Origin: Bolinopsis microptera
Lineage: Eukaryota > Ctenophora > Tentaculata > Lobata > Bolinopsidae
DNA: 64,000 nucleotides
Direction of reading: 5' to 3'
Assembly (NCBI RefSeq): GCF_026151205.1
Contig: NC_087074.1
Location: 2,852,001-2,916,000 of the forward strand
Under the pieces are notes generated by a model. It worked only from the letters and a program-made list of their open reading frames with translations. It had not been told where the DNA came from and did no database searches. Within the stretch, counting starts at the first letter, position 1, and each line of letters starts with the position of its first letter. Both the position numbers and the translations under genes were made by a program. Positions 19,239-60,422 of the stretch are shown one piece after another.

Positions 19239-20351
19239 GGGGGGGGGGGGGGGGGTTCACCCTGATTTTTTTGTGAAACTTGGTTTCGAGATAGCAGTTG
19301 ACCAACAAACTAGGACTGGTGACCGAACTTTTGAGGGGGTCTCGGACCCCAACCGCCAAACGGTGCCCGCGGGGCAGCCACGCCCATATTTGGTCCAAAT
19401 TAGGCCCAATTTAGCTGAATACCCTGAACATGCTCAAAATCAAGAATTGAGGTGCTCTACTTATAGCTAGTGGTCCCCTGAACTCGTATATGAATTTTCA
19501 TTAAGATTGGACAAAAAATGACTGAGTTATGAGCCAAAAACCATATGGCCATATTTGGGCATACCCACCAAATTTGATCGATTTTGGCCCATAAATTGGC
19601 TAAATATCAATATTTTTGCATGAAACCAACTTTATATGGAAGGTAAGCCTATACTACACATTCTCTATGATTATCAGCTCAGTATCTAACTAACTGTGGA
19701 TTCTGTGTTCAAATAATCGCAAAAAGTGAACAAAATCGCCTATATCTCAGTTCGCGATATTTGCAAAACTGATTTCGCTCAAAACAATAGAACTCAATAG
19801 GGTTTCAATATTTTACATGAAATTTTCAGAATCAACGTAGAATCGCATTTCGACCTTAAGTTTTGTATTGGAATTTTGAGTTAGGCCGATTTTGTTCATT
19901 TTTTGTGATTATTTGAACACAGAATCCACAGTTAGTTAGATACTGAGCTGATAATCATAGAGAATGTGTAGTATAGGCTTACTTTCCATATAAAGTTGGT
20001 TTCATTCAAAAATATTGATATTTGACCAATTTATGGGCCAAAATCGATCAAATTTGGTGCGTATGCCCAAATATGGTCATAACTCAGTCATTTTTTGTCC
20101 AATCTTGATGAAAATTTATATACGAGTTTAGGTGAAAAAAATCTGGTTTTTGGGCATGTTCAGGGTATTCAGCTAAATTGGGCCTAATTTGGACCAAATA
20201 TGGGCGTTGCTGCCCCGCGGGCACCGTTTGGCGGTTGGGGTCCGGGACCCCCTCAAAAGTTCGGTCACTGGTTCTAGTTTGTTGCTCAACTGCTATCTCG
20301 AAACCAAGTTTCACAAAAAAAATCAGGGTGAACCCCCCCCCCCCCCCCCCC
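19239..20351. mobile_element. 1.1-kb foldback element at a TTAA target (piggyBac-like MITE)
   Basis: Copy 2 of the duplication has the empty site CAACTTAAAGTTT. Copy 1 has TTAA (19235-19238), 1113 bp, then TTAA again (20352-20355). The element starts with 17 G and ends with 19 C. Just inside, TTCACCCTGATTTTTTT is mirrored by AAAAAATCAGGGTGAA, and the inverted similarity continues almost to the centre near 19795. It is therefore essentially one long imperfect hairpin with no transposase. A TTAA duplication is typical of the piggyBac superfamily; that assignment is inference, as the termini are obscured by the homopolymers. Confidence 0.85.
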
Positions 20352-20410
20352 TTAAAGTTTAAATTCGGCAAATAGATACAATAGCCAAAACGAAACACAA
20401 GTAATTGTCA

Positions 20411-20725
20411 GCTTCTAGCCGGCTGTTAGAGGGCTGTTGGTATTTTCCTTAAAACAAAGAGCTGACGAGGTGGGTGGAAAGGGCTGTTAGGTGGCTTTTA
20501 GAAATGCCATTAAAATAGCCATTACCCGGCTATCGGGCTATTGGCTGTTAGGTATTTGTCCCCCAAAATAGCATGAGAGGGCTATTAGCCGGCTATAAGA
20601 GGGCTGCTAGGATTTTTCAAAAACAAATAGCTGGCAGAGGTGGCAATTAGCTGGCTGTTAGAAATGCAATGAAAATGGGTATTAGCGTTGTCGTAACAGC
20701 CCTCTAACCAATAGCCGGCTGTTAC
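20411..20725. repeat. Degenerate GGCTGTTAG-type minisatellite in K2P intron 1
   Basis: Many direct and inverted variants of GGCTATTAGCCGGCTGTTAG and AGAGGGCTG occur. The array is shared by copy 2 (about 61490-61815), and its end is also seen in copy 3 (62873-62940). Confidence 0.7.
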
Positions 20726-21788
20726 TCAAAACAATCTTGCACTACCTTCTAACCTTCTGATTGCTCACGTATTTTTTAATTTTACATTCCTCAGTGGTTG
20801 AAGAGCGACAAACCAAGAGCACAATCTTTAAGAAACCAAATAGGACTCCATGATACACTCAGTGAGTTCGAATATGAAGCCATCATTGAAAAACAGCTTC
20901 AAGAAAACTACACTAGGATGCAGCAAATTGTTGACAAACAATGCTCCTTAGCAAACTATGAGTTGAAATCGTGGAACACCAAGTCTTGGGGAGACTCGTT
21001 CATGTACTCATCTAGCATTATGTCCACAGTAGGTATGAAAACTTGGTCAAAATACTATTCGGTTGTTTTTACAATTTTATAAACTTCAGCTCCAGTTAGG
21101 CTGGAATCTATAGATCTCGAAAAATCGTGATTGTTTCTTCTTTCCCACTATTCAAGAAGCTATCTTATGATAATATTTAAATTTTATTGTATCTTCTATC
21201 TAATTATAATAAAAACAGGTTGGGGAGTGTATTATCCACCAAATACAAGATTGAGAATCGTGACCCTCGCATACTTGTTTTTTGGAATTCCTATCTTCGC
21301 CTCCCTAATTAGTATGTATATCACTATCAGTTCATATTGATTTTGTTTGAACCAGGGTTTGTTGTTTCCTTATGTCATGATTTATTAGTGCATGCCATGG
21401 GATCACAAAATTAATCCGAAAATCGGTCCTCATTAATGGTTCGTAAATCACGTGACCAATTTTAGCCAGCAAAAAAGACAGAATTTTAGGATTTCATACT
21501 TGACAAAAATTATATTCACATAATCTTATAGTTTTAGTGGACTGCAAGGATAGGGTGAGCTTCATATTCACCAAGCACATGCAGTATCAAGCACTGGACA
21601 GTGATACTAATAAATTACAATCCGAAAAAAAAAACATATCAAGGTTTATCCTCGCATGACAAAGCTTACTATCCATTAGCACTAGCAGTTTGGTAAGCCG
21701 TAATTTTCCAACCACAGGAGTATGACGATGGTTATAGCAGCAGGGCACTATAATAATATAATATAACGCCTATTATGGACAATGAACA

Positions 21789-22241
21789 ATTTGTGTTGAA
21801 TGTAATTCGAGTTTTTTTTTGCGAGATCACGTTTTTTTGTGATACAGTAAACCCCGATTTACCGCGGAGTTTGGAAAAAGGAAACAGCCGCGGTAAATCG
21901 GGGTTTGCGGTAAATCGGGGGTTTGTTAGTATACATTGTGCATGTTCAGCCATATTTCAATTTGGGGAGCGTTTTATAAAATTTAGCAGACAATCACAAT
22001 GACAGACGTTGTATTATATTGCTTGGCCTGGCACGCGCACTGGAGCCGGAGAGTTTATCATTGATTGATTGACGGTGACAACCCTTCCTGACCGTCGTTC
22101 TGCGAATTAGCAGAGCAGCGATCTCGTCAGATGCGAAGAAAGAATGATAGTACGCGCGGCCGCGCGTCGAAGCGGCGAAGTCCTCCGAATGATTTAAAGT
22201 AGCCCATGACATTAATCAAAAAGAGCTGAGAGTGAGATGGT
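21789..22241. other. Spacer with a short inverted repeat
   Basis: AAACCCCGATTTACCGCGG (21849-21867) is reversed at 21888-21906, and a partial third copy follows to 21924. CAGTAAACCCCGATTTACC resembles the terminal repeats of some Tc1/mariner or pogo MITEs, but no target duplication is clear. The remainder to 22241 is moderately GC-rich and unrecognised; its last 40 bases resemble the edge of the 13.9-kb dispersed repeat. Confidence 0.55.
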
Positions 22242-25126: not shown

Positions 25127-25360
25127 CCGAAATACTAGGTATCGATAATCGACCCGAAAGCAACCCAAATGCCAAAGTGATTTTTACAGCATGTGATCAG
25201 TGATTGATGCAATTAATCGAAACTTATTCTTTTATGTTATTACGATTCGTAAGCCGTGAATGAATGGGAAAAGTAAGCGACCGATTTCATTCTCGGTATC
25301 ATTTTGATTTTGCATTATATTTGCGGACGGTCATTCAAATTAATATCATTTCCTTTTGTT

Positions 25361-27398
25361 CATTTGACTGTTTGGAACCTGAGGTTGACCTGGAATCAAT
25401 GTGGGACAACTTCAAGAAAACTGTCCAACAAGTTTCCATGGAAATTCTTGGTGAAAGACCTCGAAAAAAGAAGGACAGGCACCAATCTCAGAAGACAAAA
25501 GAATTATTGAAGAACCGTAAGGAATTTAAGCGTAAAGACCCTAATTCGAACGCTAACAGGTCAGAGTATGCTAGATTGAATAAGCTCTTTAAAAAAAGTA
25601 GTAAGGTGGACGATAACAACTGGGCACGTAGAATGGCCAATGACTTGGAAGAAGCTGCGAGAAAAGGTCAGCAACGTGAGGTATGGCAGAAGATCAATGT
25701 CATATCTGGAAAGAAGAAGAAGCAATCAACTGCAGTTAGATACGTATCTGGCCAGCTGATTGCCCACCCACATGCCCAGAAAGAAAGGTGGAAAGAGCAC
25801 TTCTCTAGGCTATTGAACCCTCCCCCGCAAGAGGCCAATATTTCTGACCTAGACAACATCCCTCCGCAACCCAGTTTTGACGACCTTTCCGACTCGGATG
25901 GTATCACCAGCGAGCAACTTAAGTATGGACAGGATGGGTTGGTCGATCAACTAGTTGTGTTGTTCAAGAAAGTGTGGGAAGATGAGAAGATTCCTGAGGA
26001 TTGGTCCAAAGGTGTTATTATTATCGTTGGTAAGAAAGGTGACACCTCTCATTGCGCTAACAACAGAGGCATTACATTAAGATCCACAGCCTCGAAGCTC
26101 CTGCAGATGATACTCCTGCGGAGACTTAGCAATGGCATGGACAAATTTCTCCGGCAGAATCAAAGTGGTTTTAGACAGAATCGCTCATGTATTGACCAGG
26201 TTTATTCACTCCGCTGTATTATACACCAATGCATTGAGTATAATATCCCTCTGTATATTAATTTTGTTGATTTCAAAGCAGCTTTTGATTCGATTGACAG
26301 GCAGTTCATTTGGAGAAGTATGCAGCACTACGGCTTACTTGACAAGTACATTAGAATTATGAAGGCGTTCTTCACTCACACAGTTAGTGCTGTTAAGGTC
26401 AATGGAGAGGTTACAGGTTGGTTTGATGTCAACTCGGGTACTGGGCAAGGTGATATACAGGGACCACCAGTCTTCAACTTTTGTTTGAATTTTTCGGCAT
26501 ACCTTATGGAACTGAACAAGGTCATTAGCAAGGGGGCTTTATTACAGCTGCCAGCCCCCGGGGTAGAAGAGAAACACCTCTTGGATACTGATTACGCTGA
26601 TAACTCAAAAGAGGGGCTGCAGGAAACCACTGACCTTCTCTGCAAATACAGTGCCTATGCGGGTCTGAAGATTAATGCTGGCAAAACACAGAGCATGGTG
26701 GTCAGCAAAAGTGCATCGCAGAGGCCGTATTCTAAAGACGACACTATGGACATCAATGTGGAAGGTCTCCCAATACAGCAGGTCAGCAATTTCACTTACT
26801 TGGGTGCAATCATCAGTGCGAATGGAACAATTGACAAAAAACTATCAGCTCGAATTCAAAAGGCCTCTGGGGCATTCTATCACCTTAGCAGTATATGGTA
26901 CAGTCGCAACATCAAGACTCCAACTAAAATAAGGATTTACAAAGCGGCTGTTCTCACTATACTACTTTATGGAAGTGAGGTATGGAATACCACACAGACG
27001 CAGATGAAAAGATTTGAGGTGTTCCATCATAGATGTCTCAGGAGAATCCTGTTAAGCGGGCTAACATCGCCCCTGTTGATACTTTCGTACGAGCAGCTAG
27101 ACTCCGATGGTTTGGCCATGTGGTGAGGATGCCAGAAGAAAGAATACCCAACTATCTTCTGCACTGGATCCCAAAGCATGGTGAAAGGTCAAGAGGTAGA
27201 CCTCGGAAAAACTGGTTGTCATGTGTCCGGGAGGATGCAGCAATCTTCACAGGTGTCGATAACATCACGATAGAAGATGCAGAACAACAAGCTACAGACA
27301 GGGTTCACTGGAGAGGTCTAATACACCAGAGAAAGGAGTTACTATGTGGTGCAGGCCACTCCAACGACTAGGAGGAGACCTTTTCAAGTACAAGTAAG
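25361..27398 (+). mobile_element. 5'-truncated LINE with inactivated reverse transcriptase (plus strand)
   Basis: It interrupts the right foldback arm; TTTGTT is duplicated at 25355-25360 and 27399-27404. The main frame runs to 27126 and the C-terminal end is in another frame, to 27371. Motifs include NQSGFRQNRSCIDQV, NFVDFKAAFDSIDRQFIW and SGTGQGDIQGPP. The catalytic box reads DYADNSKEGL where relatives have DYADDMAVLDNSEEGL: a 7-residue in-frame deletion removes the second catalytic Asp. A second in-frame loss removes the segment between DDLSDSDG and EQLKYG. A small deletion near 27050 causes the final frameshift. The C-terminus is [18 protein letters not shown] with RGRPRKNW, ending AGHSND. 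The tail is CAAGTACAAGTAAG, a short tandem repeat typical of RTE-like ends. Confidence 0.9.
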
Positions 27399-28470: not shown

Positions 28471-29421
28471 AGCATAATAATCTCGTTGAGATTATCAAAT
28501 AGAAGATTATGTAATATTGTGGCCGATTTCTGCCAGTTATGATTTATACAGAATATTTTCTCACTCTTTAGTGTTTGCCAATAAGTTCATGTCATGAGCC
28601 ACTAGTTTTGGGTCTTATAGTGACATTTTGTTTAAATGATGAGTTTAGAAGCACTTACAGTACCTTGTTCAATTATTTATTTATTTATTATTATATATAT
28701 ATATGATGTATTATTTTATGGCCTTGATGAAATTTTTTATTCAAAAGAGAGTTGTGAGATTACACATTTAACTATTGCACCTGTTTGAAACAAATCATAG
28801 TCATTGCTAACGAAGTAATGTAAAACTGAAAAGTCAAAAGTAATACAACTATGTGCTTATAAATTAATACTTTAAAAAGTAATGTAAATTGTAAAGTAAA
28901 ATTTAATTAAATTTCTTATTTCAAAAAACATCAGTTAAAAATGAAAAGTAATAATATACACCTTAAAGAAAAATAATCACACTTCACACAACATTTATTT
29001 TTTAAATTTCAAAATAAATCTCTAAATTTCTCGGTGAATACCGATTTATAAAAACGTTCAAAATGATTTAAAGTTATCTCTCAAAAAAATCCGATTCCAT
29101 TTATCAATCGGTTGCATTTCTTAAAATGTTAAAAGAGACATCGGTTCTACTGTTAGGTGAGGTGTACAATGTTTACCATCTTCAGTGGTAGGTTGATACT
29201 AGTGAAATTGTTCATTAAGATAGCTTGAAATGTTTGGTTACAGCAGTATCTCACAGTGGCGGAGGTCTGTGTCTTTTCTCGTGATTTTCGTTTCAATATC
29301 ATGAGGCTCGTTCCTGGATTCTGAAATGGTCAAGTGACAAAAATCTGGTATTATATATAATAGTCTTTTGTAAGCACTTTAAACACCACAGTTCGTGTTT
29401 GAAACGTAAAAGTAGAAATTA

Positions 29422-29927
29422 CCTTACAAGACATATTTATGGCGGCCTAATTTGCGACGACCGAAATTTTGGCGGTCCGAAAATATGGCGAAATTGAACA
29501 AAAACCGTCAAATTTCGGACGTCACAGAAAATAAGGGTATTTTTCATCATTTTTTGTGACAGTAAGCAGTAAGGAAATTCCTGAAATTCGGTAAAATCAT
29601 GTTCAAACTTAGTCTGTATTAAGACTGTAAGACTTTCATGTTAGTACATACATGTATTTTAATGCAAATTTAAACTGTATTGCTTGACATTCAATTCGTC
29701 ATTGGTGTGATGATAATTTGTCCCAAGATGCCAGAATTTATTTATTTATTTTACTTGATATTACTTTTTAGAAACAAAATAAAGCAGTGAGGGCACAGTC
29801 ATTGAAATAAGCTAAAAGATAATGCGAGGGATTCTATTACGACGACCGAAATTTTGGCGGTCCGAAAATATGGCGAAATTTTCGGAAAACCGCCACATTT
29901 CGTACGTTATACATATGTCTTGTAAGG
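29422..29927. mobile_element. TA-flanked DNA element (mariner/pogo-type MITE)
   Basis: Terminal repeats CCTTACAAGACATAT and its complement lie at the two ends, with TA on each side (29420-29421 and 29928-29929). Other units of the tandem repeat give the uninterrupted sequence AAATGATCAC. An internal 40-base direct repeat (ACGACCGAAATTTTGGCGGT and following bases) occurs near both ends. There is no transposase. Confidence 0.8.
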
Positions 29928-31839
29928 TATCACATTTCATGAAATAATAATTATTGGATAGTGATTGAACAGTTTGTAGAAAAATTTAAACGAGAAGAAT
30001 ATTTTCACTTCTTGTACTTACTATTCACAGCTGCCTAAAAAGGTTTACAAAGGGTTCACATTTTGTTTTGTCAGTTGAAAGGTTCGTTCCTGCTGAGTAA
30101 GGGTCTGAAATATATTGTTATAATATGATATAATAGCAATACATGCAGAATCAGATTTATGAAAACGTTTAAAATGATTAATCCGATTCCATTTATCAAT
30201 CGGTTGCATTTCTTAAAATGTTAACAGGGACACCAGTTCTACTGTTCGGTACGGTGTACAATGTTTACCATCTTCAGTGGTAGGTTGATACTATTACTAG
30301 TCAAATTGTTCATTAAGATAGCTTAAAATGTCTGGTTACAGCAATATCTCACAGTGGCGGAGGTCTGTGTCTTTTCTCGTGATCTTCGTTTCAATATCAT
30401 GAGGCTCGTTCCTGGATTCTGAAATGGTCGAGTGACAAAAATCTGTTATTATGTAGTTTTTGGTGAACACCACATTTCGTGTTCGGAACGTAAAAGTAGA
30501 AATGATCACATTTCATGAAATAATAATTCTTGAACAGTTTGTAGAAAAACTTAAACGAGAAGAATATTTTTCACTTCTTGTACTTACTATTCACAGCTGT
30601 CTAAAAAGGTTTACAAAGGGTTCACATTTTGTTTTGTCAGTTGAAAGGTTCGTTCCTGCTGAGTAAGGGTCTGAAATAAATTGTTATAATCTAACTTATA
30701 ATCCCAGAATGTGTGTCTGTCTGTCTGTTTGTAATTTCCGAGCGGCTTAATCAAGAAAACGGTAAGAGTTGCGGGACTGATTTTTTCGGTAAAGTGCCGA
30801 CAAAACTCTGACGAAGTTAAATGATAAAGGTTTTTTAAATCGGTCGTTGGTAGGTGGTTTAATTGATGGTTTTGTACCACAAATGTTACATAATATGGCT
30901 TGAGCAGAACGGTAAGAGTTACGGGGCTCGCATATATATCCACCAGCGTGCGCTTTTTCGTATAGCGGGCTCTCACCAGCCCGCTGTCAAAGGGCCCGAT
31001 ATCTCTACAGCCCGCTCATGATATAGCCCGCTAACAAGTGACATTTAATTTGACCAGTAGCAATATAGCCCGGAGTTCTCTAAAATATTTTCAGTTTCTG
31101 TATCGTCTCCATGTGAAATTCCATAAGACAACAACTTACAAGTTACTTAGAACTATAGTTGAAACCGGTTTAATTCATTAACGATGAATTCAATTGCAAT
31201 AATCGTACAGTGAGCTAATTAGTGTAGTTTCTGTTTCTAAATTCCCACGGCAATATGCAGTGGATGTAAAGAATGTATTAACTGTAAACTCTGAGCTCAC
31301 CCTCTATCGGACGCTATATCAGTTGTCACGCAGTTTGCCATGATTGGCTCATAATTAACACGTGACACTGACACACTGTTACTATGGTTACCAAATTCGT
31401 GGAGACGTCCAGACTAAATTCTAAGCCGGTGATCTCTATTATAGTATCGATAATTGTTTTGTGTTTACCATTTCAGCTGTGTTTACCATTTTCATTTCAC
31501 TAGTTCAGTCGATAAATCTTGAAATGTAGGCCGAAATTTTACGTGTTATTCTATTGTGTTCCCGAAAGATATTTTGCCCTGTTTTTGTTTTGAAACTGCC
31601 ATTTAAATTGATGTTATGAATTTGATCTTTAACTTTCATATTAAATGTCCATGATCAGACTGTGATCTCGAGCTCTCTGGGTTACTACTTTTAAGTGTCC
31701 AGCCACTCAGTAGCTGCTACAGAAACTGTAGTAACTGGTTACCCGGGTAACCCTGGTTACCCAGGTAACTGACATGATAATGACAACTAACTTGGTAGTA
31801 GAGGGCTCTGTGGCGACTGGTGGTGCTTGTTCTGGTTCC

Positions 31840-32572: not shown

Positions 32573-34450
32573 AGTCTCCGGTGATATGTATATATATATG
32601 TAGCTGCATAATTAGTGTAATTGAGTTACCCGGGTAAGATTCGCTGTCTATACTATAATCTCATTAGGGGAGGGGGCACTGTTTGGACTGCAGAGAGAGA
32701 GTTCACACTTCCATACGACAATGTTATGCGTGTTCACAAATATGATAGGCGGGTGTGGTGTTAAGGGTTAATTTCTATTGATTATTGTTTAAGATACTAT
32801 TACTATTGTTTAAGATACCATTGGATACGTGAGGGCACTCCGAATAGAATTGCTCACCTAATGCGGGTTCTGACTCAACGGGTAAATGCTCCTACCCTTT
32901 TTAACTGCGGCAGTGAAATCCCGGCCGAAGGCCGGGTTACACTAGTATGATATAATAGCAATAAATGCAGATTTATGAAAACGTTTAAAATGATTAATCC
33001 GATTCTATTTATCAATCGGTTGCATTTCTTAAAATGTTAACAGGGACACCAGTTCTACTGTTCGGTACGGTGTACTGTGTACAATGTTTACCATCTTCAG
33101 TGGTAGGTTGATACTATTACTAGTCAAATTGTTCATTAAGATAGCTTAAAATGTTTGGTTACAGCAATATCTCACAGTGGCGGAGGTCTGTGTCTTTTCT
33201 CGTGATCTTCGTTTCAATATCATGAGGCTCGTTCCTGGATTCTGAAATGGTCGAGTGACAAAAATCTGTTATTATGTAGTTTTTGATAAACACCACATTT
33301 CGTGTTCGGAACGTAAAAGTAGAAATGATCACATTTCATGAAATAATAATTCTTGAACAGTTTGTAGAAAAATTTAAACGAGAAGAATATTTGTCACTTC
33401 CTGTACTTACTATTCACAGCTGCCTAAAAAGGTTTACAAAGGGTTCACATTTTGTTTTGTCAGTTGAAAGGTTCGTTCCTGCTGAGTAAGGGTCTGAAAT
33501 ATATTGTTATAATATGATATAATAGCAATACATGCAGATTTATGAAAACGTTTAAAATGATTAATCCGATTTCATTTATCAATCGGTTGCATTTCTTAAA
33601 ATGTTAAAAGAGACACCGGTTCTACTGTTCGGTAGGTGGACAATGTTTACCATCTTCAGTGGTAGGTTGATACTAGTGAAATTGTTCATTAAGATAGCTT
33701 GAAATTTCTGGTTATAGCAGTATCTCACAGTGGCGGAGGTCTGTGTCTTTTCTCGTGATCTTCGTTCAATATCATGAGGCTCGTTCCTGGATTCTGAAAT
33801 GGTCGAGTGACAAAAATCTGTTATTATGTAGTTTTTGGTAAACACCACATTTCGTGTTCGGAACGTAAAAGTAGAAATGATCACATTTCATGAAATAATA
33901 ATTATTGAACAGTTTGTAGAAAAACTTAAACGAGAAGAATATTTTTCACTTCTTGTACTTACTATTCACAGCTGCCTAAAAAGGTTTACAAAGGGTTCAC
34001 GTTTTGTTTTTTCCGTTGAAAGGTTCGTTCCTGCTGAGTAAGGGTCTGAAATAAAGTGTTATCATATGATGTAATAGCAAAACATCAAAACTTTGTTAAA
34101 TCTTTGAATAGATTTTGAATTTTGTTTAATGTTAAATACTTATTTATAAATAATATGTGTCTAACATTGAATAATTTTTATAAATGTTTAAAAACACAAA
34201 TGTGTCTCACAGTGATAGAGTTATGTGTCTTTTTTTAGGGTATTCATTACTTATCAATGCCATGAAGCTCGTTTCTGTAATCTGTATTCTGAAATGGTGA
34301 TTTGATTGCTGAGTGACACATTATTTCTGGATTGTACATGTAATTTCTGGTAATCAACACGGTTCATGTTCAAAATGTAAAATGTGGTCACAGTTAAATT
34401 GAAAATAATAGCAATGTGTTTTAAACAGCAATTGAATTTTAGGAATTCAG

Positions 34451-35266
34451 CACAATAGAAGTGTTGCAGTATATGACGAAAAAAACAAACATTTTAAGTG
34501 GACATTTTTCTTACTAACCTTGAATTCTCTTAGATTAATTGGAGCTGATATTATCTCTCTTTCTTCCTGTTCATCTCTATTCTGTCGACATTCGTATAGA
34601 CTTTATAAATCATCGTCTTTGTTCTCCCTTAAGAAGGAGTAGATTATCATTAGACCTTATTAAGATCTTCTGTTTTTTGTCATTTGAAATGGAAATCACC
34701 GGATTTGCGGTTAGTTTCTAATATTTGCTAGACTATATCATCAAGGGTTTATGTTGTAACATTGAGCTAGATTCTACGTACATCTCACGATTGTATTAAG
34801 TGTTTTAGTTTAAGTTTAATATATTTATGAAACAAAGTGTTTTACTATGTTATAATGAAAATGCGTTCTTTGTTAAATTTTTAAATTTAAATTGATTTTA
34901 CATTTTATTTTGCTTTGTCAAATGCTGTCGTGTTGAGATCTCAGAGCAGGTCATCTCGACAACTTTTCTGGGAACTTATGGCTACTGGGTTTCTGCTGTC
35001 ATACTTTTCCACCCGGAAAACTCAAACATACATTTTCTTATTTAGATATCTAAGTTAGATTGCAGTATCATCTGAGCTATTTGTTATAGCCCATCAATTG
35101 TAAGATTAAATTAAATCAATTTTCTATAGTAATATAACCATTAACCAACTCTCCCCCTTACGACATTATTTTACCCCCTTTCGTCGGTTATGATGATACT
35201 ACCCTGGTTGTAGTTATCCTTTTGTAGTGATGCCATGGTCATTTAGTATATTCGCTTCTACAATAC
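34451..35266. other. Spacer between the tandem array and the minus-strand modular gene
   Basis: No gene is recognised. Further 3' exons of the minus-strand modular gene are expected here or beyond, because its last recognised exon ends in a donor, but I could not identify one securely. Confidence 0.5.
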
Positions 35267-38200
35267 CTGTATTTATACACTCGGGTTCATTAAAATCGAA
35301 AATAAATTCTGTTCCTGAGGTGCAGGTCACCTCGCTGCTCCCTTTATTGAGAGCTCTGGATTCAACACAATTCACTTCCACCACGGTTCCTGGGACTACT
35401 GGGAACTGTGTTGTTGTTCTGATCGCAGTTCTCCACTCAGCCTTCAGTCCCGTACAGCTCACTGTCGATATGTCATATTAAATCACGTTTAACTGATTAA
35501 TTGGGTTGTGTGATACAATTATAAGGGTTATTTTGACGGTTTCTTATGTTCTCTTCCGCAGTTCCGCGATTAAGTTCCCTGTCCCAACCCGAACCCTTTC
35601 AAGCAACCTCTTATATAACTATACTATCGTTTGCTCGGGGGTCCAAGTCTAAAATACTGTATACAGTTTACCATTCTGTAGCGCAGTTAAATAAAATTTA
35701 AAACATAACAATAATATAAGATTTAAAGTTATCTTACCACAGGCAGTTTTGCTAGTGTTTGGTTTCCATCCAGCGTCACATGTCTCACAGCTTGTCATAG
35801 CATCATTCCGATATGTTCCTTCTCCACACAGCTCTGGAATTATAACGTTATATATTATTACAACTGGTAAATCGTTGTGGAAGATAAGAAATTGTTATTA
35901 TAAAAGTACACTTTACAATCACATAAGATTTAAAACAATAGGTGAATAATTAAATATCCACACAACCACGGTTTTTTGATAGAATTATTACCACCGAGAC
36001 TCTTAAGGTTCTTGTCTTTTCGTACCACAAATATGCCTTCTTGATTCTAAGTCCTATCTGGCGCCTTATCCTTATCCCGTCTTAACCCTTAGCCTATCTT
36101 TGCCCATCTATATAATATAGATATAATCATCTCAGCTCGATTCTTGTTAACAATTCTTACCACATTTTGTTCTCCCTGAGTTTCGTTCCTGGCCAAGTTC
36201 ACAAGTTGTACACAAGGCTGCTCCTTCTGAACTGATCGTGTTATCAGGACATTCTTTACATGTGTTCATCTCAATGTTCTGGTAGCTTCCAGCTGGACAT
36301 GGCTCTGAAGAATTAGGAAATCTTTAAACAGCAATTCGTTTGAACTACCTTATTTAGAAGTTATTGTGAGTACTAATGTCCTCGGTTTTCATTCTATAGC
36401 ACAGTTAATTCAAATTTAAAACATAACAATAATATTGAATATAATAAGCTTTAAAGTTATCTTACCACAGGCTGTTTTGTCAGAGTTTGGTGTCAATCCA
36501 GCGTCACATGACTCACAGCTTGTCATAGCACCATTCCGATATGTTCCTTCTCCACACGGCTCTGGGATTAATAACGTTACAACTGGCAAATCGTAGTGGA
36601 AGATAAGAAAATCGTTATTATATAAGTATTTTAGTACAGTTTAGATGTGTTACAATAACATTAGACTTAAAACAATGTGTGAAAAATTAAATATCCTCAC
36701 AACCACGGTTTTTTGATAGAATTATTACCACCCAGACTCTTACGGTTCTTGTCTTTTCGTACCACAAATTTGCCTTCTAGATTTTAAGCCCTATCTGGCG
36801 CCTTATCCTTATCCCGTCTTAACCCTTAGCCTATCTTTGCCCATCTATATATAATATAGATATAATCATCTCAGCTCGATTCTTGTTAACAATTCTTACC
36901 ACATTTTGTTCTCCCTGAGTTTTGTTCCTGGCCAAGTTCACAAGTTGTACACAAGGCTGCTCCTTCTGAACTGATCGTGTTATCAGGACATTCTTTACAT
37001 GTGTTCATCTCAATGTTCTGGTAGCTTCCAGCTGGACATGGCTCTGAAGAATTAGGAAATCTTTAAACAGCAATTCGTTTGAACTACCTTATTTAGAAGT
37101 TATTGTGAGTACTAATGTCCTCGGTTTTCATTCTATAGCACAGTTAATTCAAATTTAAAACATAACAATAATATTGAATATAATAAGCTTTAAAGTTATC
37201 TTACCACAGGCTGTTTTGTCAGAGTTTGGTTTCAATCCAGCGTCACATGACTCACAGCTTGTCATAGCACCATTCCGATATGTTCCTTCTCCACACGGCT
37301 CTGGGATTAATAACGTTACAACTGGCAAATCGTAGTGGAAGATAAGAAAATCGTTATTATATAAGTATTTTAGTACAGTTTAGATGTGTTACAATAAAAT
37401 TAGACTTAAAACAATGTGTGAAAAATTAAATATCCTCACAACCACGGTTTTTTGATAGAATTATTACCACCCAGACTCTTACGGTTCTTGTCTTTTCGTA
37501 CCACAAATTTGCCTTCTAGATTTTAAGCCCTATCTGGCGCCTTATCCTTATCCTGTCTTAACCCTTAGCCTATCTTTGCCCATCTATATAATATAGATAT
37601 AATCATCTCAGCTCGATTCTTGTTAACAATTCTTACCACATTTTGTTCTCCCTGAGTCTTGTTCCTGGCCAAGTTCACAAGTTGTACACAAGGCTGCTCC
37701 TTCTGAACTGATCGTGTTATCAGGACATTCTTTACATGTGTTCATCTCAATGTTCTGGTAGCTTCCAGCTGGACATGGCTCTGAAGAATTAGGAAATCTT
37801 TAAACAGCAATTCGTTTGAACTACCTTATTTAGAAGTTATTGTGAGTACTAATGTCCTCGGTTTTCATTCTATAGCACAGTTAATTCAAATTTAAAACAT
37901 AACAATAATATTGAATATAATAGGCTTTAAAGTTATCTTACCACAGGCTGTTTTGTCAGAGTTTGGTGTCAATCCAGCGTCACATGACTCACAGCTTGTC
38001 ATAGCACCATTCCGATATTTTCCTTCTCCACACGGCTCTGGGATTAATAACGTTACAACTGGCAAATCGTATTGGAAGATAAGAAAATCGTTATTATATA
38101 AGTATTTTAGTACAGTTTAGATGTGTTACAATAACATTAGACTTAAAACAATGTGTGAAAAATTAAATATCCTCACAACCACGGTTTTTTGATAGAATTA

Positions 38201-41200
38201 TTACCACCCAGACTCTTACGGTTCTTGTCTTTTCGTACCACAAATTTGCCTTCTAGATTTTAAGCCCTATCTGGCGCCTTATCCTTATCCTGTCTTAACC
38301 CTTAGCCTATCTTTGCCCATCTATATAATATAGATATAATCATCTCAGCTCGATTCTTGTTAACAATTCTTACCACATTTTGTTCTCCCTGAGTTTTGTT
38401 CCTGGCCAAGTTCACAAGTTGTACACAAGGCTGCTCCTTCTGAACTGATCGTGTTATCAGGACATTCTTTACATGTGTTCATCTCAATGTTCTGGTAGCT
38501 TCCAGCTGGACATGGCTCTGAAGAATTAGGAAATCTTTAAACAGCAATTCGTTTGAACTACCTTATTTAGAAGTTATTGTGAGTACTAATGTCCTCGGTT
38601 TTCATTCTATAGCACAGTTAATTCAAATTTAAAACATAACAATAATATTGAATATAATAAGCTTTAAAGTTATCTTACCACAGGCTGTTTTGTCAGAGTT
38701 TGGTGTCAATCCAGCGTCACATGACTCACAGCTTGTCATAGCACCATTCCGATATTTTCCTTCTCCACACGGCTCTGGGATTAATAACGTTACAACTGGC
38801 AAATCGTATTGGAAGATAAGAAAATCGTTATTATATAAGTATTTTAGTACAGTTTAGATGTGTTACAATAACATTAGACTTAAAACAATGTGTGAAAAAT
38901 TAAATATCCTCACAACCACGGTTTTTTGATAGAATTATTACCACCCAGACTCTTACGGTTCTTGTCTTTTCGTACCACAAATTTGCCTTCTAGATTTTAA
39001 GCCCTATCTGGCGCCTTATCCTTATCCCGTCTTAACCCTTAGCCTATCTTTGCCCATCTATATAATATAGATATAATCATCTCAGCTCGATTCTTGTTAA
39101 CAATTCTTACCACATTTTGTTCTCCCTGAGTTTTGTTCCTGGCCAAGTTCACAAGTTGTACACAAGGCTGCTCCTTCTGAACTGATCGTGTTATCAGGAC
39201 ATTCTTTACATGTGTTCATCTCAATGTTCTGGTAGCTTCCAGCTGGACATGGCTCTGAAGAATTAGGAAATCTTTAAACAGCAATTCGTTTGAACTACCT
39301 TATTTAGAAGTTATTGTGAGTACTAATGTCCTCGGTTTTCATTCTATAGCACAGTTAATTCAAATTTAAAACATAACAATAATATTGAATATAATAAGCT
39401 TTAAAGTTATCTTACCACAGGCTGTTTTGTCAGAGTTTGGTGTCAATCCAGCGTCACATGACTCACAGCTTGTCATAGCACCATTCCGATATGTTCCTTC
39501 TCCACACGGCTCTGGGATTAATAACTTTACAACTGGCAAATCGTAGTGGAAGATAAGAAAATCGTTATTATATAAGTATTTTAGTACAGTTTAGATGTGT
39601 TACAATAAAATTAGACTTAAAACAATGTGTGAAAAATTAAATATCCTCACAACCACGGTTTTTTGATAGAATTATTACCACCCAGACTCTTACGGTTCTT
39701 GTCTTTTCGTACCACAAATTTGCCTTCTAGATTTTAAGCCCTATCTGGCGCCTTATCCTTATCCCGTCTTAACCCTTAGCCTATCTTTGCCCATCTATAT
39801 AATATAGATATAATCATCTCAGCTCGATTCTTGTTAACAATTCTTACCACATTTTGTTCTCCATGAGTTTTGTTCCTGGCCAAGTTCACAAGTTGTACAC
39901 AAGGCTGCTCCTTCTGAACTGATCGTGTTATCAGGACATTCTTTACATGTGTTCATCTCAATGTTCTGGTAGCTTCCAGCTGGACATGGCTCTGAAGAAT
40001 TAGGAAATCTTTAAACAGCAATTCGTTTGAACTACCTTATTTAGAAGTTATTGTGAGTACTAATGTCCTCGGTTTTCATTCTATAGCACAGTTAATTCAA
40101 ATTTAAAACATAACAATAATATTGAATATAATAGGCTTTAAAGTTATCTTACCACAGGCTGTTTTGTCAGAGTTTGGTGTCAATCCAGCGTCACATGACT
40201 CACAGCTTGTCATAGCACCATTCCGATATGTTCCTTCTCCACACGGCTCTGGGATTAATAACGTTACAACTGGCAAATCGTAGTGGAAGATAAGAAAATC
40301 GTTATTATATAAGTATTTTAGTACAGTTTAGATGTGTTACAATAACATTAGACTTAAAACAATGTGTGAAAAATTAAATATCCTCACAACCACGGTTTTT
40401 TGATAGAATTATTACCACCCAGACTCTTACGGTTCTTGTCTTTTCGTACCACAAATTTGCCTTCTAGATTTTAAGCCCTATCTGGCGCCTTATCCTTATC
40501 CCGTCTTAACCCTTAGCCTATCTTTGCCCATCTATATAATATAGATATAATCATCTCAGCTCGATTCTTGTTAACAATTCTTACCACATTTTGTTCTCCA
40601 TGAGTTTTGTTCCTGGCCAAGTTCACAAGTTGTACACAAGGCTGCTCCTTCTGAACTGATCGTGTTATCAGGACATTCTTTACATGTGTTCATCTCAATG
40701 TTCTGGTAGCTTCCAGCTGGACATGGCTCTGAAGAATTAGGAAATCTTTAAACAGCAATTCGTTTGAACTACCTTATTTAGAAGTTATTGTGAGTACTAA
40801 TGTCCTCGGTTTTCATTCTATAGCACAGTTAATTCAAATTTAAAACATAACAATAATATTGAATATAATAAGCTTTAAAGTTATCTTACCACAGGCTGTT
40901 TTGTCAGAGTTTGGTGTCAATCCAGCGTCACATGACTCACAGCTTGTCATAGCACCATTCCGATATGTTCCTTCTCCACACGGCTCTGGGATTAATAACG
41001 TTACAACTGGCAAATCGTAGTGGAAGATAAGAAAATCGTTATTATATAAGTATTTTAGTACAGTTTAGATGTGTTACAATAAAATTAGACTTAAAACAAT
41101 GTGTGAAAAATTAAATATCCTCACAACCACGGTTTTTTGATAGAATTATTACCACCCAGACTCTTACGGTTCTTGTCTTTTCGTACCACAAATTTGCCTT

Positions 41201-43708
41201 CTAGATTTTAAGCCCTATCTGGCGCCTTATCCTTATCCCGTCTTAACCCTTAGCCTATCTTTGCCCATCTATATAATATAGATATAATCATCTCAGCTCG
41301 ATTCTTGTTAACAATTCTTACCACATTTTGTTCTCCCTGAGTTTTGTTCCTGGCCAAGTTCACAAGTTGTACACAAGGCTGCTCCTTCTGAACTGATCGT
41401 GTTATCAGGACATTCTTTACATGTGTTCATCTCAATGTTCTGGTAGCTTCCAGCTGGACATGGCTCTGAAGAATTAGGAAATCTTTAAACAGCAATTCGT
41501 TTGAACTACCTTATTTAGAAGTTATTGTGAGTACTAATGTCCTCGGTTTTCATTCTATAGCACAGTTAATTCAAATTTAAAACATAACAATAATATTGAA
41601 TATAATAAGCTTTAAAGTTATCTTACCACAGGCTGTTTTGTCAGAGTTTGGTGTCAATCCAGCGTCACATGACTCACAGCTTGTCATAGCACCATTCCGA
41701 TATTTTCCTTCTCCACACGGCTCTGGGATTAATAACGTTACAACTGGCAAATCGTATTGGAAGATAAGAAAATCGTTATTATATAAGTATTTTAGTACAG
41801 TTTAGATGTGTTACAATAACATTAGACTTAAAACAATGTGTGAAAAATTAAATATCCTCACAACCACGGTTTTTTGATAGAATTATTACCACCCAGACTC
41901 TTACGGTTCTTGTCTTTTCGTACCACAAATTTGCCTTCTAGATTTTAAGCCCTATCTGGCGCCTTATCCTTATCCCGTCTTAACCCTTAGCCTATCTTTG
42001 CCCATCTATATAATATAGATATAATCATCTCAGCTCGATTCTTGTTAACAATTCTTACCACATTTTGTTCTCCCTGAGTTTTGTTCCTGGCCAAGTTCAC
42101 AAGTTGTACACAAGGCTGCTCCTTCTGAACTGATCGTGTTATCAGGACATTCTTTACATGTGTTCATCTCAATGTTCTGGTAGCTTCCAGCTGGACATGG
42201 CTCTGAAGAATTAGGAAATCTTTAAACAGCAATTCGTTTGAACTACCTTATTTAGAAGTTATTGTGAGTACTAATGTCCTCGGTTTTCATTCTATAGCAC
42301 AGTTAATTCAAATTTAAAACATAACAATAATATTGAATATAATAAGCTTTAAAGTTATCTTACCACAGGCTGTTTTGTCAGAGTTTGGTGTCAATCCAGC
42401 GTCACATGTCTCACAGCTTGGCATAGCATCACTCCGATATGTTCCTTCTCCACACGGCTCTGGAATTAATAACGTTACAACTGGCAAATCGTAGTGGAAG
42501 ATAAGAAAATCGTTATTATATAACTATTTAAGTACAGTTCAGATGTGTTACAATAACATTAGATTTAAAACAATATGTGAAAAATTAAATATCCACATAT
42601 TCCACGGTTTTTCGAGGAAATAATTGCCACCCAGACTCTTACGATTCTTGTAATTTCCTACCACAAATTTTCCTTCTTGGTTCTAAGCCCAATACTAATT
42701 CAAATTGTTACCAATCATTAGGATTAACGCTAAAAATTCGCCTCATTAACAAACTATGAAGCACAATGCACATTGCACAATGCACATATTGTGTAAACTC
42801 TGCAAAGTAAATATTGAACCAAAAAAGTTTTGAGTTTGTTTGGTAAAATACCTTACAGCTTATGTTCAAGATATTTTGTAAAAACATCAGTTTTCAATTA
42901 ATGATTGTTTCAACCTTTAGTAGCTGAAAATGGCTTGTCTCCATGATGTCTTCTACAAAATATGCAATATTTCTAAATTATAGTTAGCTATTTTGCAATC
43001 TGAAAGAATGTAATTTTATCTCATTCGGAGAACAGTAATTGATAAAATTATGACCACTTTATTACGTTATAAATAACAATATGTACTAACTATCCTATAT
43101 CCCATATCCTATAATATATGTGTTTATGTTAAACTTAAATACCTAAATAACATACTTGAAATTTAGACAGAAAACACGTAATCACGAGCTTACGTGAGAA
43201 TCAGCAAGTTGGCTTATTTATAAATTAAAGTTTAAAATGTTACTTTGTTAAACCAAAGCTTGTTGTTATTAGTCACCTGGTAGTGTTCCGTAGTAATCAG
43301 ATGCTGCGTCGCCGGAAGAGAACTTTATCTTTGTCACGTCCCTGTTCCAGTACGTGCTCCAGTCACTGCGACTACACGTTTGAGAGAGCAGTATGTTCAG
43401 CACCTCTACCTCGTTACAGTGTATCACTAGTCTAACACCTGCAGTCCTGGTTAGAGTGATACGCCAAACCTTGTCAGTAGCAGAGGGGGGAATAACAGGG
43501 AAGTTAGCGTAGGATATGCAGTAGCTGAGCCCGTATTTTAGAGTATAGCTGAAGTAGAGCCAGACTGCTCCTGCATCCTCTCCCTCAGCAGAGTAGAAGC
43601 GCACTCTCACATTATCGTCACTCCCCAGCTCACTATTAGTTTTAATTTCTAAAGGTGTCGACTCAAGATCCCACTCTATTTCCACCGCACGTTCGACTGG
43701 TAACCAAC
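35267..43708 (-). CDS. Secreted or extracellular Cys-rich modular protein (ephrin-receptor-like/GCC2-GCC3 modules plus sushi domain), internal exons
   Basis: Twenty-one exons are visible, all phase 1-1, read from high to low coordinates. The first is 43708-43277 (144 residues, domain unrecognised). Then A exons (96 bases) alternate with B exons (144 bases), and the last is 35461-35267 (65 residues). Lower edges of the A exons: 42364, 41627, 40890, 40153, 39416, 38679, 37942, 37205, 36466, 35738. Lower edges of the B exons: 42059, 41322, 40585, 39848, 39111, 38374, 37637, 36900, 36161. Module B is EPCPAGSYQNIEMNTCKECP and onward, six Cys. Module A is PCGEGTYRNGAMTSCESCDA and onward, four Cys. 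Both resemble GCC2_GCC3/ephrin-receptor-like repeats of proteins such as SCUBE and SVEP1. The last exon looks like a sushi/CCP domain (Cys, VVPGTVVEVNC, SSEVTC, then PEC). Donors and acceptors fit GT-AG. Joined, about 961 residues are open. Signal peptide and terminal exons were not found, so the gene is partial. Exact ligand or role unknown. Confidence 0.82.
35738..42459 (-). repeat. 737-bp tandem array carrying an A exon and a B exon per unit
   Basis: A exons recur at intervals of exactly 737 bases from 37205 to 42364; the two lowest steps are 739 and 728. Introns are as conserved as exons: blocks such as CCACCCAGACTCTTACGGTT and GCCCTATCTGGCGCCTTATC recur with only single-base variants. 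The edge units (35738 and 42364) are more diverged. This implies recent unequal crossing-over or continuing homogenisation. Confidence 0.95.
42460..43276. other. Intron of the modular gene
   Basis: AT-rich sequence between the first visible exon and the array; nothing else is recognised. Confidence 0.6.
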
Positions 43709-47074: not shown

Positions 47075-48003
47075 TATTTAATACTATATTATCTCATTTC
47101 ACCGGGTATAAGTGGTACTATTTCTATTTTCTATAACGATAAATTATTGATCTATTTTTGATCAATGATAAGTAAAATAGCAACTCATGCATGCACATGT
47201 CGCGAAGCTTACCACAGAGAGATAGCGAGATGATTTGTAGGAATATTAACTTCGTTTGAAGATTCCGCATGTCTGCCATTCTACATTGTTAGAAAAATCG
47301 ATGTTTAACTTTAAACGAAATATCAACAACTGAAGATTGAGGAAAGTACATAATACAAGTTTACTAATTAACTCGCCAGAGTGCTATCACGTGAATTAAA
47401 TGAATTTGTGGATTTGCAGCCGCTATCATGTTAAAAAATGCGATTTTCCCTATTATTTACCTGTATAAGAAACGCTATAAAAATGGGCGTGGCACATGGC
47501 GACCTTATCCGGAACACTAGAGCCAAACATTTTTTAAAAGTTGTTCCTGACCCTATAGAGCAATAAGATATGATCTCTAATTATTTGAACAACTTTTGGT
47601 AAAATGAATCACACGTACTGTAGTGCGACAGAGGGTGTTTTTGTCGGACTTCGCACTAGAGTACGTGTCGCACTACAGTACGATTACCTAGCCCATAATA
47701 TGGAGCATTATACTATGGAGTCCATATTCATGAACACTACATTGTTGAACTCCTGGCTCATCCTACACCTTGGCGCATGATTTCGATTAAATGGTCTCTC
47801 TGGGCAGATGCCAAAAAGTCAAAGGGTATTCCCTCAACACACAAATAGGCAGCAGTAGCAAGCTCAGCCAAATTAATGGCGCAAACTAAATCTAACCATT
47901 CTCTCGGTTGGGTCAGTGGTTTAAATCATGCAGATCACTGAAAGTGAAACTAATTCTAGGCAGTAAGGTAGTACGTTTTCGTCAAAAGTCAGGGTGAGAT
48001 GTG
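47075..48003. other. Spacer with a 17-bp inverted repeat
   Basis: CGTACTGTAGTGCGACA near 47614 is reversed as TGTCGCACTACAGTACG ending near 47682, with a spacer of about 35 bases. Nothing else is recognised. Confidence 0.55.
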
Positions 48004-48082
48004 CAAAGAGCGGGAATTGAACCCACGACCTCCCGATGAACGCTCGGATGCTAAACATTTAGCTATCTTGCCACAAATCAGT
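48004..48082 (-). repeat. tRNA-like sequence (SINE head or tRNA pseudogene)
   Basis: The minus strand has a B box GGTTCAATTCC (complement of 48013-48023) in a T arm GTGGG-CCCGC. A plausible five-pair anticodon stem (TCCGA with TCGGG) has loop GCGTTCA. Base 33 would be C instead of the invariant U and the D arm is poor, so I do not call a functional tRNA. Confidence 0.5.
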
Positions 48083-54164: not shown

Positions 54165-55017
54165 ATATATATATACATATATACATATATATATTCAGGG
54201 ATAGACGCTTTGCCAGTGAATTATAGCCTGTATTTAAGTGTCCGTAGATTCTAAAGTATAAAAGATACAGCCATTTCGGACCACAGGTCTTAAAGATAAT
54301 TGTTTAGACTTTAGTTTACATTATGTTAAAAAGTAATTCAACGTCATCATCACCACTTGATGACGTCATCAAGTTAACCATTTTTAAAACTTGATTTTTC
54401 ACAAAGTAATCATTTTTCAAATCGATTTTACGCCATTAAGGAGTAATTTTATTCAAAATTTGAGGGCATATTGAAGTTAGACAATTGTTTAAGCATTCTG
54501 AAAATCTACCGGAAAGTTTTTCTAGCTTGCTCCTTCATAAAGATATTCGCTATTGAAGTTAGTGCTTTTTTAAAGAATAATTTTATTAAAACGCTAATTT
54601 TACGTTCTAGTATTCTCTGGTGTTGCACCATCCCTTGGGTTGTGGAGCTCAATTTTGCTTCCTAAAGGTCTAAATTGTGTCATAGGCTAGTTTTAAAGTT
54701 GAAAATCGAAAAGTTGCACACGTGGGAACACGCCCAAATTGATAGAAAATTGCTAAAATCACTGAAAATTGCTGTTTTCACCAATTTCCGTCAACTTTGG
54801 AGTGCCGTTGTGATTACAGTTCTTCTTGAAATACTTTGAAACTTTGCATGCTTATCAAACTATATATAAAACACCATCATGCAAAAATTTACGGTGATTA
54901 GATATTGGATGCGCACGCAACTTCCGCTCAAGGTTTGCACGTGCGAAAGGTTAAAATTTTGCTCATTCGTGATTTTGAACAAATTCTGCTTTGCCACGAC
55001 AGTTCAATGTCATTATA

Positions 55018-55334
55018 TCTTACTATATATAAAGCGAGACGATATATATATGTGTATATATCCGTGCCATTTTACTGACACCACGGCATCAACTTTAACG
55101 CGACTTTCCGCAAAAACCGTAAAAGATATACAACTAAAACTTTTTTGACTGGGTCAAATGCTTTAATGGCCTTCAAATCAGCATGAAAAGCTAAAAAATT
55201 GGCCAAGGAATAATAATTTTAGTGCCCAAAATTTGGACTCTCAAGTGGTGTCAAAAACGCGAATTAAATAGGTAATAATTATTTTAGTCTCTCGAGTCTT
55301 GACACCACTTTAGGGTTAGACGGGTTCCTGCTAG
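55018..55334 (+). mobile_element. 317-bp non-autonomous Helitron-like element
   Basis: It begins TCTTACTATATATAAAGCGAG and ends CGGGTTCCTGCTAG. It lies exactly between A (55017) and T (55335). The other copy of the host repeat keeps the uninterrupted CATTATATATGAATTT (about 15509-15524). No bases are duplicated. Siblings are at 699-2151, 715-1847 and 52172-53416. The 3' hairpin is not evident. Confidence 0.8.
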
Positions 55335-55540
55335 TATGAATTTAATGCCAACTTCAATGAGTATAAAGTGGCATATTCAGTCAGTGATCGACCGATATGC
55401 TTACCTAAACACAAGGAAATGTTTTCAAAGGAAAAATTTCGAAATCGTTGAAATAACCTCCTTATTAATATTAATGAAGTTATTAGTTTACATTTCGGCT
55501 TTGTAAAGTACCCTGACATTATAATAAAAAAAGAGATGAT

Positions 55541-55905
55541 ATTTTACCATATTTTAACCCATAATCATGGGTAGAGTGGAGCGCTGCCAGTGTCTCTCTT
55601 TCCCAAACAAAAGGTAATGATATCAATTTGAATGACCGTTATCAAATGAAAAATGATACCGAGAATGAAATCGGTCGCTCGCTTTTCCCATTCATTTACA
55701 ATTGAAATAGATTATATGTTATAAATCGAAACTTATTACAATTCGTAAGCCATGAATGAGTGGGAAAATCGAGCGACCGATTTCATTCTCGGTATCATTT
55801 TTCATTTGATAACGGTCATTCAAATTGATATCATTACCTTTTGTTTGGGAAAGAGAGACACTGGCAGCGCTCCACTCTACCCATGATTATGGGTTTTGGT
55901 AAAAT
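55541..55905. repeat. Compact foldback element
   Basis: It has the same inverted arms as 15715-16226 but a much shorter spacer, around 55705-55740. It begins ATTTTACCATATTTTAACCC and ends GGGTTTTGGTAAAAT. Confidence 0.8.
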
Positions 55906-56153
55906 AGTACCATAGACTATTTCGGTAAATATATCAAAACTTTAAAACAGGTACTTTCCTTCGACCTTCGTCCTAACAGCAGTAGTAGTACCTGTACAAA
56001 TGGAAAAATATGGAAATGTATCAATATCATATATAAGTGGACGCGTTTTAATTAATTTTTCATTTTTGCACGTGTCTGTCCTTTGTTAAACATTTATTTG
56101 TTATAATTGTTTGTCAAATAACCTTCAATTTATAATTTTGTAATATTTTACAG

Positions 56154-56880
56154 ATTGCATATCGGGCATACTCGACTCTTTGGAAAAGTGTATAGTAAAG
56201 AAAAAAACAATACAGAAATGTATTGACAATCATATTCATACGGTCTTAGAAATCCTTTGGGTAATCTGTGTGATTCTCGCAGTTTTGATATATGGTTAGT
56301 TTTCTATATAATTATAAATATAAAAAGGTCCTGTCACGGACACGATTTTGCCTCACAATTAAAAACTGAAGTGATATTTTTTATCTTTTAAATGTCTATT
56401 AGTATCAACAATTAAGAAAATTAGGGGTGAAGAGTAAAAATTAAGAAAACTGTTGTAGTTCTACTTACACTTATTATAGTTATATTGATTTTTACTTTCC
56501 TAACAGCTGTTATCTGTGACTTTTTCGTGGAAGAAGGCAGAGCCGACGTTTTAGAAGCGCAACTTGAGGACGCTGTTCTCAACTACTCCTGGACTTATTT
56601 TATCTCTGTTTACTATACTATTATTACCGTAACGAGTATCGGGTTTGGAGATATTTACGTTTATAGCCCAAACCACTTCCTTTTAAACATCAAACCAGTT
56701 CTTTGCTTGTTCTTAACTGCTTTTCTCGTTGCTTTCTTTGCTAGAATTTTTACTAAAATACAGAATAAGGTGGACAAGGCTGCTACAAAGAGAAGTGAGA
56801 GGGCTCATAAAAGTGTGACAAAATTGAGACTGGGTATTATGCCTGTAGTTCAGGAAATTGAAGATTCCAATGATCAATAA
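56154..56880 (+). CDS. K2P potassium channel 3' half (M3, pore 2, M4, C-terminus)
   Basis: Exons are 56154-56294 and 56507-56880. Acceptors are TTTACAG and CTAACAG, the donor is GTTAGT, and both junctions are phase 1. The first exon encodes a basic linker (KCIVKKKTIQKC) and M3 (VLEILWVICVILAVLIY). The second encodes a short extracellular segment, pore 2 (YFISVYYTIITVTSIGFGDI, filter T-S-I-G-F-G), M4 (VLCLFLTAFLVAFFARIF) and a 45-residue basic tail ending SNDQ before TAA. Paired pores with GFG in the second are typical of K2P leak channels, which set resting potential as plasma-membrane dimers. The entry phase matches the end of K2P exon 3 seen at 21311 and 62403. The upstream half on this strand is the broken copy 35 kb away, so either a very large intron or an orphaned 3' half. 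An AATAAA lies at about 56959. Confidence 0.82.
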
Positions 56881-57730
56881 TAATTTTGATAATTTTTCCT
56901 CGAATTCCTCAAACATGTATTCGAGAGATGGAAATAATAACTGTTTTTCCTTTGGAAATAAACATTATTGTAGATGTTTTTATGGGTGGTGATGTTTTGA
57001 TTATTAAGTACATTTATTTATTGAGAGTAACAAAAAAGGTCGCTTATTCTAGTTCTCGTTCAAATTACTTAATAAATGAAACATGCTTAAAGATGGATTA
57101 ATTACACTTACGCCTAGAAATTGATTGATAACACTTAAACCTAAAATAATACTTACAACTAAAATAGGAGGCTGGTTTGCTATGCAACCCACTTATCTTA
57201 CTATGTTTATATTGTACATAATAACAATCAAATTTGTTTATCATTATCATGTCACTCGTTCGAGATTACATGCTGTCTTCACTAATTATCGAGGACTAAA
57301 TCAAATAAAATACACGATCATAAATAAAGTTATATTTATCCCTCGGCCAGCCGTTCGTTTTCTCCATTTTTAGGCTTTCTGAAGGTTTGGATAACATATT
57401 CTTGTTTGCTGTGTCTTAAAAGATATCATAACTCTGTCATTTCATCTCCTTTTTGCCTACTTCTTCAATTTGCCATTTGACGGGCAATGACAGCATGCAA
57501 GTGCAACAGTCGAGTTCTTAGCATGCTTAAGAAGGCTATCTGCAATATAAAGATATAAAGCCAAAAGAGTTAAGGGTGTGATCTTGTCATTGAACCAAAG
57601 GTTTGGGCTACCGTTTACTTGTGGCTTGTATGTACATTGTAGTTGTTACTGCGTGGAAAGTACCACAATTTGCTTGTATTATTCATATTCTGGTATCCCC
57701 ACCACACATAGACAACTATATAAGTATAAC
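56881..57730. other. K2P 3' flank
   Basis: AT-rich sequence without a recognisable gene; frames at 56886-57373 have no family resemblance. Confidence 0.5.
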
Positions 57731-57818
57731 TTATTTTAATTAATTGTCTAATATCATATCTTTCACTGGATATATATATCCAGTGAAAGATATGATATTA
57801 GACAATTAATTAAAATAA
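57731..57818. repeat. 88-bp perfect palindrome
   Basis: TTATTTTAATTAATTGTCTA and onward to the centre GGATATATATATCC, then the exact complement back to TAAAATAA. There is no unpaired spacer. It can extrude as a cruciform. Confidence 0.9.
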
Positions 57819-58370
57819 TTAATTATATATAGTATACAATATACATATGACATATCATTAGTTATAGCTCCTTCGACCCTTTGTTGTTGAGCACTTTCAA
57901 CAAATCACCCTCAAATATGGATCCTAACTCTACCAGCTTCACGGAACTCAATAAAGAATTTTCATCTACCACTTTTCGAAGGCCAACGAAATTAGCATTT
58001 ATGAAACACCCTGTATATTTTAAAGTCACTATTGTGACGGTACATTAGAACTAGACAGAAACAAAGTGTGGAGGGCCTGAACGGAACCCCTCGGTTTCAG
58101 TTCCTTGTTTAACACTGCCGTACAGCAAGGAGTAAGGACATCCACCGGGTTCTCCAAGGATGCAGGCACATAGCTCACTCCACACTATGCTTTGTCAAAT
58201 GTTGCTTATATACCAAGGATCTACAGGAAATATTTCCTTAGACATAATAGTAGGCAGTTTTAAAATCAGCTACTAGACGTCTGCTGAGTGCTGACACACA
58301 ATGAAACATTGTCATGACATACATGTTACATAATATGTATATTGTATGTACTATTACATTATGTACATAT
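57819..58370. other. Spacer
   Basis: Nothing is recognised. The sequence becomes GC-richer around 58050-58200, without family resemblance. Confidence 0.5.
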
Positions 58371-60357: not shown

Positions 60358-60422
60358 ACTGGGCGGCGCTCAGCCTGTCATTCCGCCGAATCTCTATTTT
60401 ATGAAGCCTGGGGACCCCAGGT
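60358..60422 (+). repeat. Short dispersed element (SINE-like), duplicated site
   Basis: It is the counterpart of 18169-18233 and was present before the duplication. It is flanked by AAGTT at 60353-60357 and 60423-60427. Confidence 0.7.

Follow-up and report, generated by a model that had tools for sequence, protein, structure and literature searches.

A homogenised 737-bp array of two cysteine-rich exons within a probable extracellular protein gene of Bolinopsis microptera

The KIV-2 repeat of human LPA is a two-exon unit with near-identical exons, for which the excerpted text of PMC7613587 gives about 40 different alleles; the same excerpt cites a report whose title states that KIV-2 exons and introns are highly conserved. 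In human DMBT1 (SALSA), an excerpt of PMC4851238 describes molecules that may hold 7 to 20 SRCR domains and an allelic copy number that varies. We analysed a comparable array in a 64,000-nt stretch of genomic DNA (the window). Its units measure 737 bp and encode Ephrin_rec_like/TNFR-like modules, whereas LPA KIV-2 units measure about 5.55 kb and encode kringles. DMBT1, as far as that excerpt goes, resembles it as a Cys-rich extracellular domain array inside one gene, but SRCR is a different domain family. Allelic variation is known for LPA and population data exist for DMBT1, whereas the present array was read from one allele. The mechanism is not new, being already known from LPA and DMBT1. 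In the literature we recognised general precedents and no paper on this array, which is not evidence that the array is unpublished.

Exon limits were set by splice sites and reading frame on the minus strand of this single allele. A sequence-only reading of the DNA had counted ten A exons and nine B exons between 35738 and 42459, and our analysis returned exactly that count and span. The A exon (96 nt, 4 Cys) and the B exon (144 nt, 6 Cys) alternate (Table 1). All 19 exons are phase 1-1 with lengths divisible by three, in agreement with the phase given earlier. GTAAGA donors and CAG acceptors were intact at all 19 predicted exons, and the joined translation (10 A and 9 B modules, 752 aa) contained no stop. 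The proposed unit length of 737 bp also held, except in U8 (739 bp) and U9 (728 bp): the nine short introns were each 161 bp, and seven long introns of 336 bp were followed by one of 338 and one of 327 bp. A 300-bp reference was found in nine copies, 737 bp apart (739 bp once), and self-identity at lag 737 reached 87%, compared with at most 29% at lags 700–780 in 20 shuffles of the segment. Repeat homology extended beyond the outermost exons, wider than the ends first given. As the reading had claimed, any whole number of units keeps the frame, and so does the skipping of any exon. A coding intragenic VNTR of the LPA KIV-2 type is characterised by frame-neutral tandem units with whole exons and introns, homogenised across both, as seen in this array, and by a unit number that differs between alleles. 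We conclude that the array is probably an intragenic tandem repeat of this type, built from a two-exon module in the gene of an extracellular Cys-rich protein.

Table 1. Positions in the window of the predicted exons, the repeat region and a second tandem array.
Feature	Position	Strand	Remark
Preceding exon	43277..43708	-	144 aa, phase 1-1, no Pfam match at E ≤ 1
A1 exon	42364..42459	-	5' edge copy, diverged at 4/96 sites, all nonsynonymous
B1 exon	42059..42202	-	
A2 exon	41627..41722	-	GEGKYR type
B2 exon	41322..41465	-	
A3 exon	40890..40985	-	
B3 exon	40585..40728	-	NSW variant
A4 exon	40153..40248	-	
B4 exon	39848..39991	-	NSW variant
A5 exon	39416..39511	-	
B5 exon	39111..39254	-	
A6 exon	38679..38774	-	GEGKYR type
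B6 exon	38374..38517	-	
A7 exon	37942..38037	-	GEGKYR type
B7 exon	37637..37780	-	QDSG variant
A8 exon	37205..37300	-	GLKP variant
B8 exon	36900..37043	-	
A9 exon	36466..36561	-	
B9 exon	36161..36304	-	QERN variant
A10 exon	35738..35833	-	3' edge copy, diverged at 9/96 sites
Following exon	35267..35461	-	65 aa, phase 1-1, Cys spacing sushi/CCP-like by eye
Whole repeat homology	35672..42693	-	including edge introns, ~9.5 units
Second array, copies	29043-30119 (split by 29420-29928), 30111-30685, 32943-33508, 33500-34060		

The suggestion that the modules belong to an extracellular protein was strengthened by Pfam, in which the exons matched extracellular Cys-rich repeat families. Joined over two and a half units, they matched Ephrin_rec_like (PF07699) at 3.4e-15 (56 bits against a cut-off of 23.1). 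The B exon alone just passed this cut-off (23.9 bits), whereas the A exon alone fell under it (13.6 bits). The joined units therefore belong to Ephrin_rec_like, yet the family assignment is not unique, because TNFR_ELAPOR1_6th (3.5e-15) and NCD3G (2.1e-13) also passed their cut-offs. The best matches among PDB sequences were Mst1 (8tx1, E = 2.8e-23) and ELAPOR1 (9vqm, E = 9.8e-13), Ephrin_rec_like repeat proteins that resemble the array in the sequence of their Cys-rich repeats. Compared by sequence match alone, the modules of these two proteins are clearly diverged from one another over the aligned stretches, unlike the array modules, which are nearly identical at the DNA level, introns included. 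The 80-aa unit consensus contained no N-X-S/T site. A search of viral contigs in a non-eukaryote collection with the A/B module gave 32 pattern matches and no confirmed relative.

The array is part of a larger gene. A 432-nt exon precedes it and a 195-nt exon follows it; both are open, lie in the same phase and have plausible splice sites, and together with the array they form 21 predicted consecutive exons of a single phase. For the preceding exon, PDB sequences gave only matches to enoyl-CoA hydratases at E ~0.5, which we took as chance, and a search of genome contigs in the non-eukaryote collection gave 32 pattern matches and no confirmed relative. AlphaFold, run without an alignment, returned a mean pLDDT of 34.8 for it. 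The Cys pattern of the following exon resembles, by eye, that of a sushi/CCP domain; we retain this as a resemblance only, as the exon had no Pfam match at E ≤ 1 and matched only an scFv in PDB (E = 1.4). In a tblastn search of the window, no further copies of the two flanking exons were found except at E above 1. Scanning downstream for further splice sites with consensus weights gave no candidate exons, at a threshold that would also have missed three of four array exons used as controls. We located neither the start of the gene nor its 3' end, and no exon for a membrane segment or a cytoplasmic part. On the minus strand, an exon-like frame (NRDEQEEREII...) with a GTTAGT donor lies at 34450-34602. 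It had no Pfam match and is a possible candidate for a cytoplasmic exon of the array gene.

The interior units were compared from U1 to U8, with the diverged A exon of U1 set aside and the 2-bp intron insertion of U8 left out. Nine sites varied, in addition to that one indel, and outside the A exon pairs of units differed by 0.45% on average. The statement that introns are as conserved as exons was upheld (variable sites: 4/240 in exons versus 5/497 in introns; Fisher p = 0.48). Such uniformity would also be seen if the introns were kept identical by selection, for example on regulatory or splicing elements, instead of by exchange. We regard this as very improbable: at the edges of the array the same introns are 7.5–10% diverged and carry indels, and therefore the intron sequence is not under constraint as such. 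Within the array, no Rfam family reached its gathering score.

Variants were mixed among the units, as the sequence-only reading had described. GEGKYR occurs in A2, A6 and A7, and GEGTYR in the other seven A exons. Among six informative sites in U1–U8, 8 of the 15 site pairs showed all four combinations in a four-gamete test, which indicates that variants have been exchanged between units. At this low divergence recurrent mutation is unlikely, so exchange is the simplest reading. Neighbouring units were no more alike than others (Mantel r = -0.23, one-sided p = 0.88). The earlier attribution to gene conversion thus stood in part: the four-gamete result and the lack of a neighbour gradient supported exchange, but conversion could not be separated from unequal crossing-over, since the four-gamete test is blind to whether conversion, unequal crossing-over or the mixing of haplotypes by an assembler produced the combinations. 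In the last case, the true unit number would differ or two haplotypes would have been merged, and the variant mosaic would be partly made by the assembler. The pairwise identity of U1–U8 (98.6–99.7%) and the complete identity of U1 and U5 outside the A exon are in line with such an artefact. However, U1 and U5 are the sole identical pair, and therefore no run of at least two adjacent units is repeated exactly within U1–U8; moreover, the edges of the array grade into unique sequence and the window contains no N. An assembly artefact thus appears quite unlikely.

The edge copies were diverged, as reported earlier, differing from the interior by 4–10%. Besides the edge A exons (Table 1), 24 of 233 sites differed in the intron 5' of A1, and 24 of 318 sites, plus indels, in the long intron of U9 before A10. 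We aligned the left edge, the right edge and a single interior copy, comprising the long intron of U2, A3 and the short intron of U3, and scored the sites where the interior matches only one edge. Of 19 such sites at intron positions 106–198, the interior shared the right-edge state in 15; of 25 from position 214 through the A exon, it shared the left-edge state in 21 (Fisher p = 4e-5 for the switch). As clustered changes are possibly single events, we merged them in a permutation that allows for the choice of cut point. Merged substitutions alone gave p = 0.073 or 0.065, not significant at 0.05, and merged substitutions with four indels gave p = 0.019. The interior repeat therefore looks like a hybrid of both edges, as unequal crossing-over would leave, and its polarity, with a right-like 5' part and a left-like 3' part, is that expected of unequal crossing-over between the edge copies. 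A step model had a slightly lower AIC than a smooth gradient of conversion (41.8 versus 43.5), and the pattern slightly favours unequal crossing-over, although conversion fading towards the edges would give a similar pattern and fits nearly as well.

At eight sites all interior units share a substitution that sets them apart from both edges, suggesting that the interior descends from one founder; the interior units thus look like its young descendants. We left out a ninth interior-specific site (long intron position 239), as the interior units themselves differ there (site 640). Gene conversion acting alone, which would homogenise a fixed number of units and leave copy number unchanged, would mix variants in the same way. 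But it makes no new units, so that the origin of the units needs another process, and the eight fixed substitutions point to one founder, though conversion could also have spread them. We consider conversion alone unlikely. Under unequal crossing-over, two old diverged copies of a segment comprising a long-intron end, an A exon and a short-intron start would have served as direct repeats, and crossing-over between them would have created, then multiplied, the unit. The interior would have been kept uniform by continued crossing-over or gene conversion.

We then considered whether selection acts on the exons. By hand count, the distinct exonic variable sites of the interior and edges comprised 14 nonsynonymous and 1 synonymous change. 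The nonsynonymous fraction expected without selection was ~0.757, a weighted mean, entered by hand, of the A (0.747) and B (0.773) expectations. No purifying selection on the exon sequence was detectable from this 14:1 count, and the excess of nonsynonymous changes (one-sided p = 0.089) does not establish positive selection. No exonic change strikes a Cys codon; given the small number of changes, this could easily be coincidence. The count agrees with a decaying array that has lost its function and selection, in which the frames are open only because one intact unit was amplified recently. So does the divergence of A10, as fast as that of its own intron (p = 0.53); that of A1 was lower than in its intron, but not significantly (4/96 versus 24/233, p = 0.08). 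Against decay, both diverged edge exons are also free of stops, frameshifts and lost splice sites, and the flanking exons are open in the same phase. Indels occur in the edge introns and in no exon, a weak contrast given so few events. Decay is, in our judgement, improbable. It is also rather doubtful that the array diversifies the length and sequence of a surface protein that evolves fast and serves recognition or adhesion, with the 14:1 ratio reflecting diversifying selection and not drift; recombination would in that case set the length of the rod and mix amino-acid variants between modules.

With a VNTR-type array, the protein would bear a rod of ten A and nine B modules (752 aa), and each unit gained or lost between alleles would change its length by 80 aa. 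The protein could lengthen or shorten block by block, as known for human lipoprotein(a). Differences in unit number between individuals are likely, as a natural consequence predicted from the array structure, and alternative inclusion of the interchangeable exons is possibly a further source of length change. The array offers a clean, small example of the growth of an extracellular repeat protein: all its exons are interchangeable in frame, ordinary long reads suffice for units of this size, and the founding exchange has left traces at its edges. Should unit number prove variable in the population, the array would be well suited to measuring exon-array turnover in an invertebrate gene.

Several other features were observed in the window. 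On the 3' side of the gene lies a second, insert-interrupted tandem array with ~565-bp units, whose long pieces are 91–95% alike (Table 1). On the minus strand, all four copies contain a SAGTNLST stretch, and three copies were the top off-array matches of a joint A/B exon profile, at only E = 0.083; the A-exon profile alone gave E values of 0.69–0.71, and the one copy tested had no Pfam match. They are possibly relics of decayed exons, or chance matches. A 620-aa reverse transcriptase frame (RVT_1, 6.4e-20) lies at 25264-27123 (+), and frames similar to reverse transcriptase by eye lie at 23.4–25.2 kb (minus) and 44.3–45.4 kb (plus); therefore, non-LTR-like elements seem to flank the array gene. 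An Rfam tRNA match at 48002-48071 (-; 37.3 bits) was absent from the ARAGORN output. A large segmental duplication links 14993-21792 and 54495-63998, with pieces ~91–97% identical, and 61750-62868 is repeated in tandem at 62873-63998 (88%). The duplication includes an ORF at 20780 that resembles a two-pore potassium channel, with an Ion_trans_2 match under the cut-off (E = 0.052). At 10271-12238 (+), a 656-aa open frame contains ankyrin repeats and narrowly passes the cut-off for YVC1_C (TRP-like channel).
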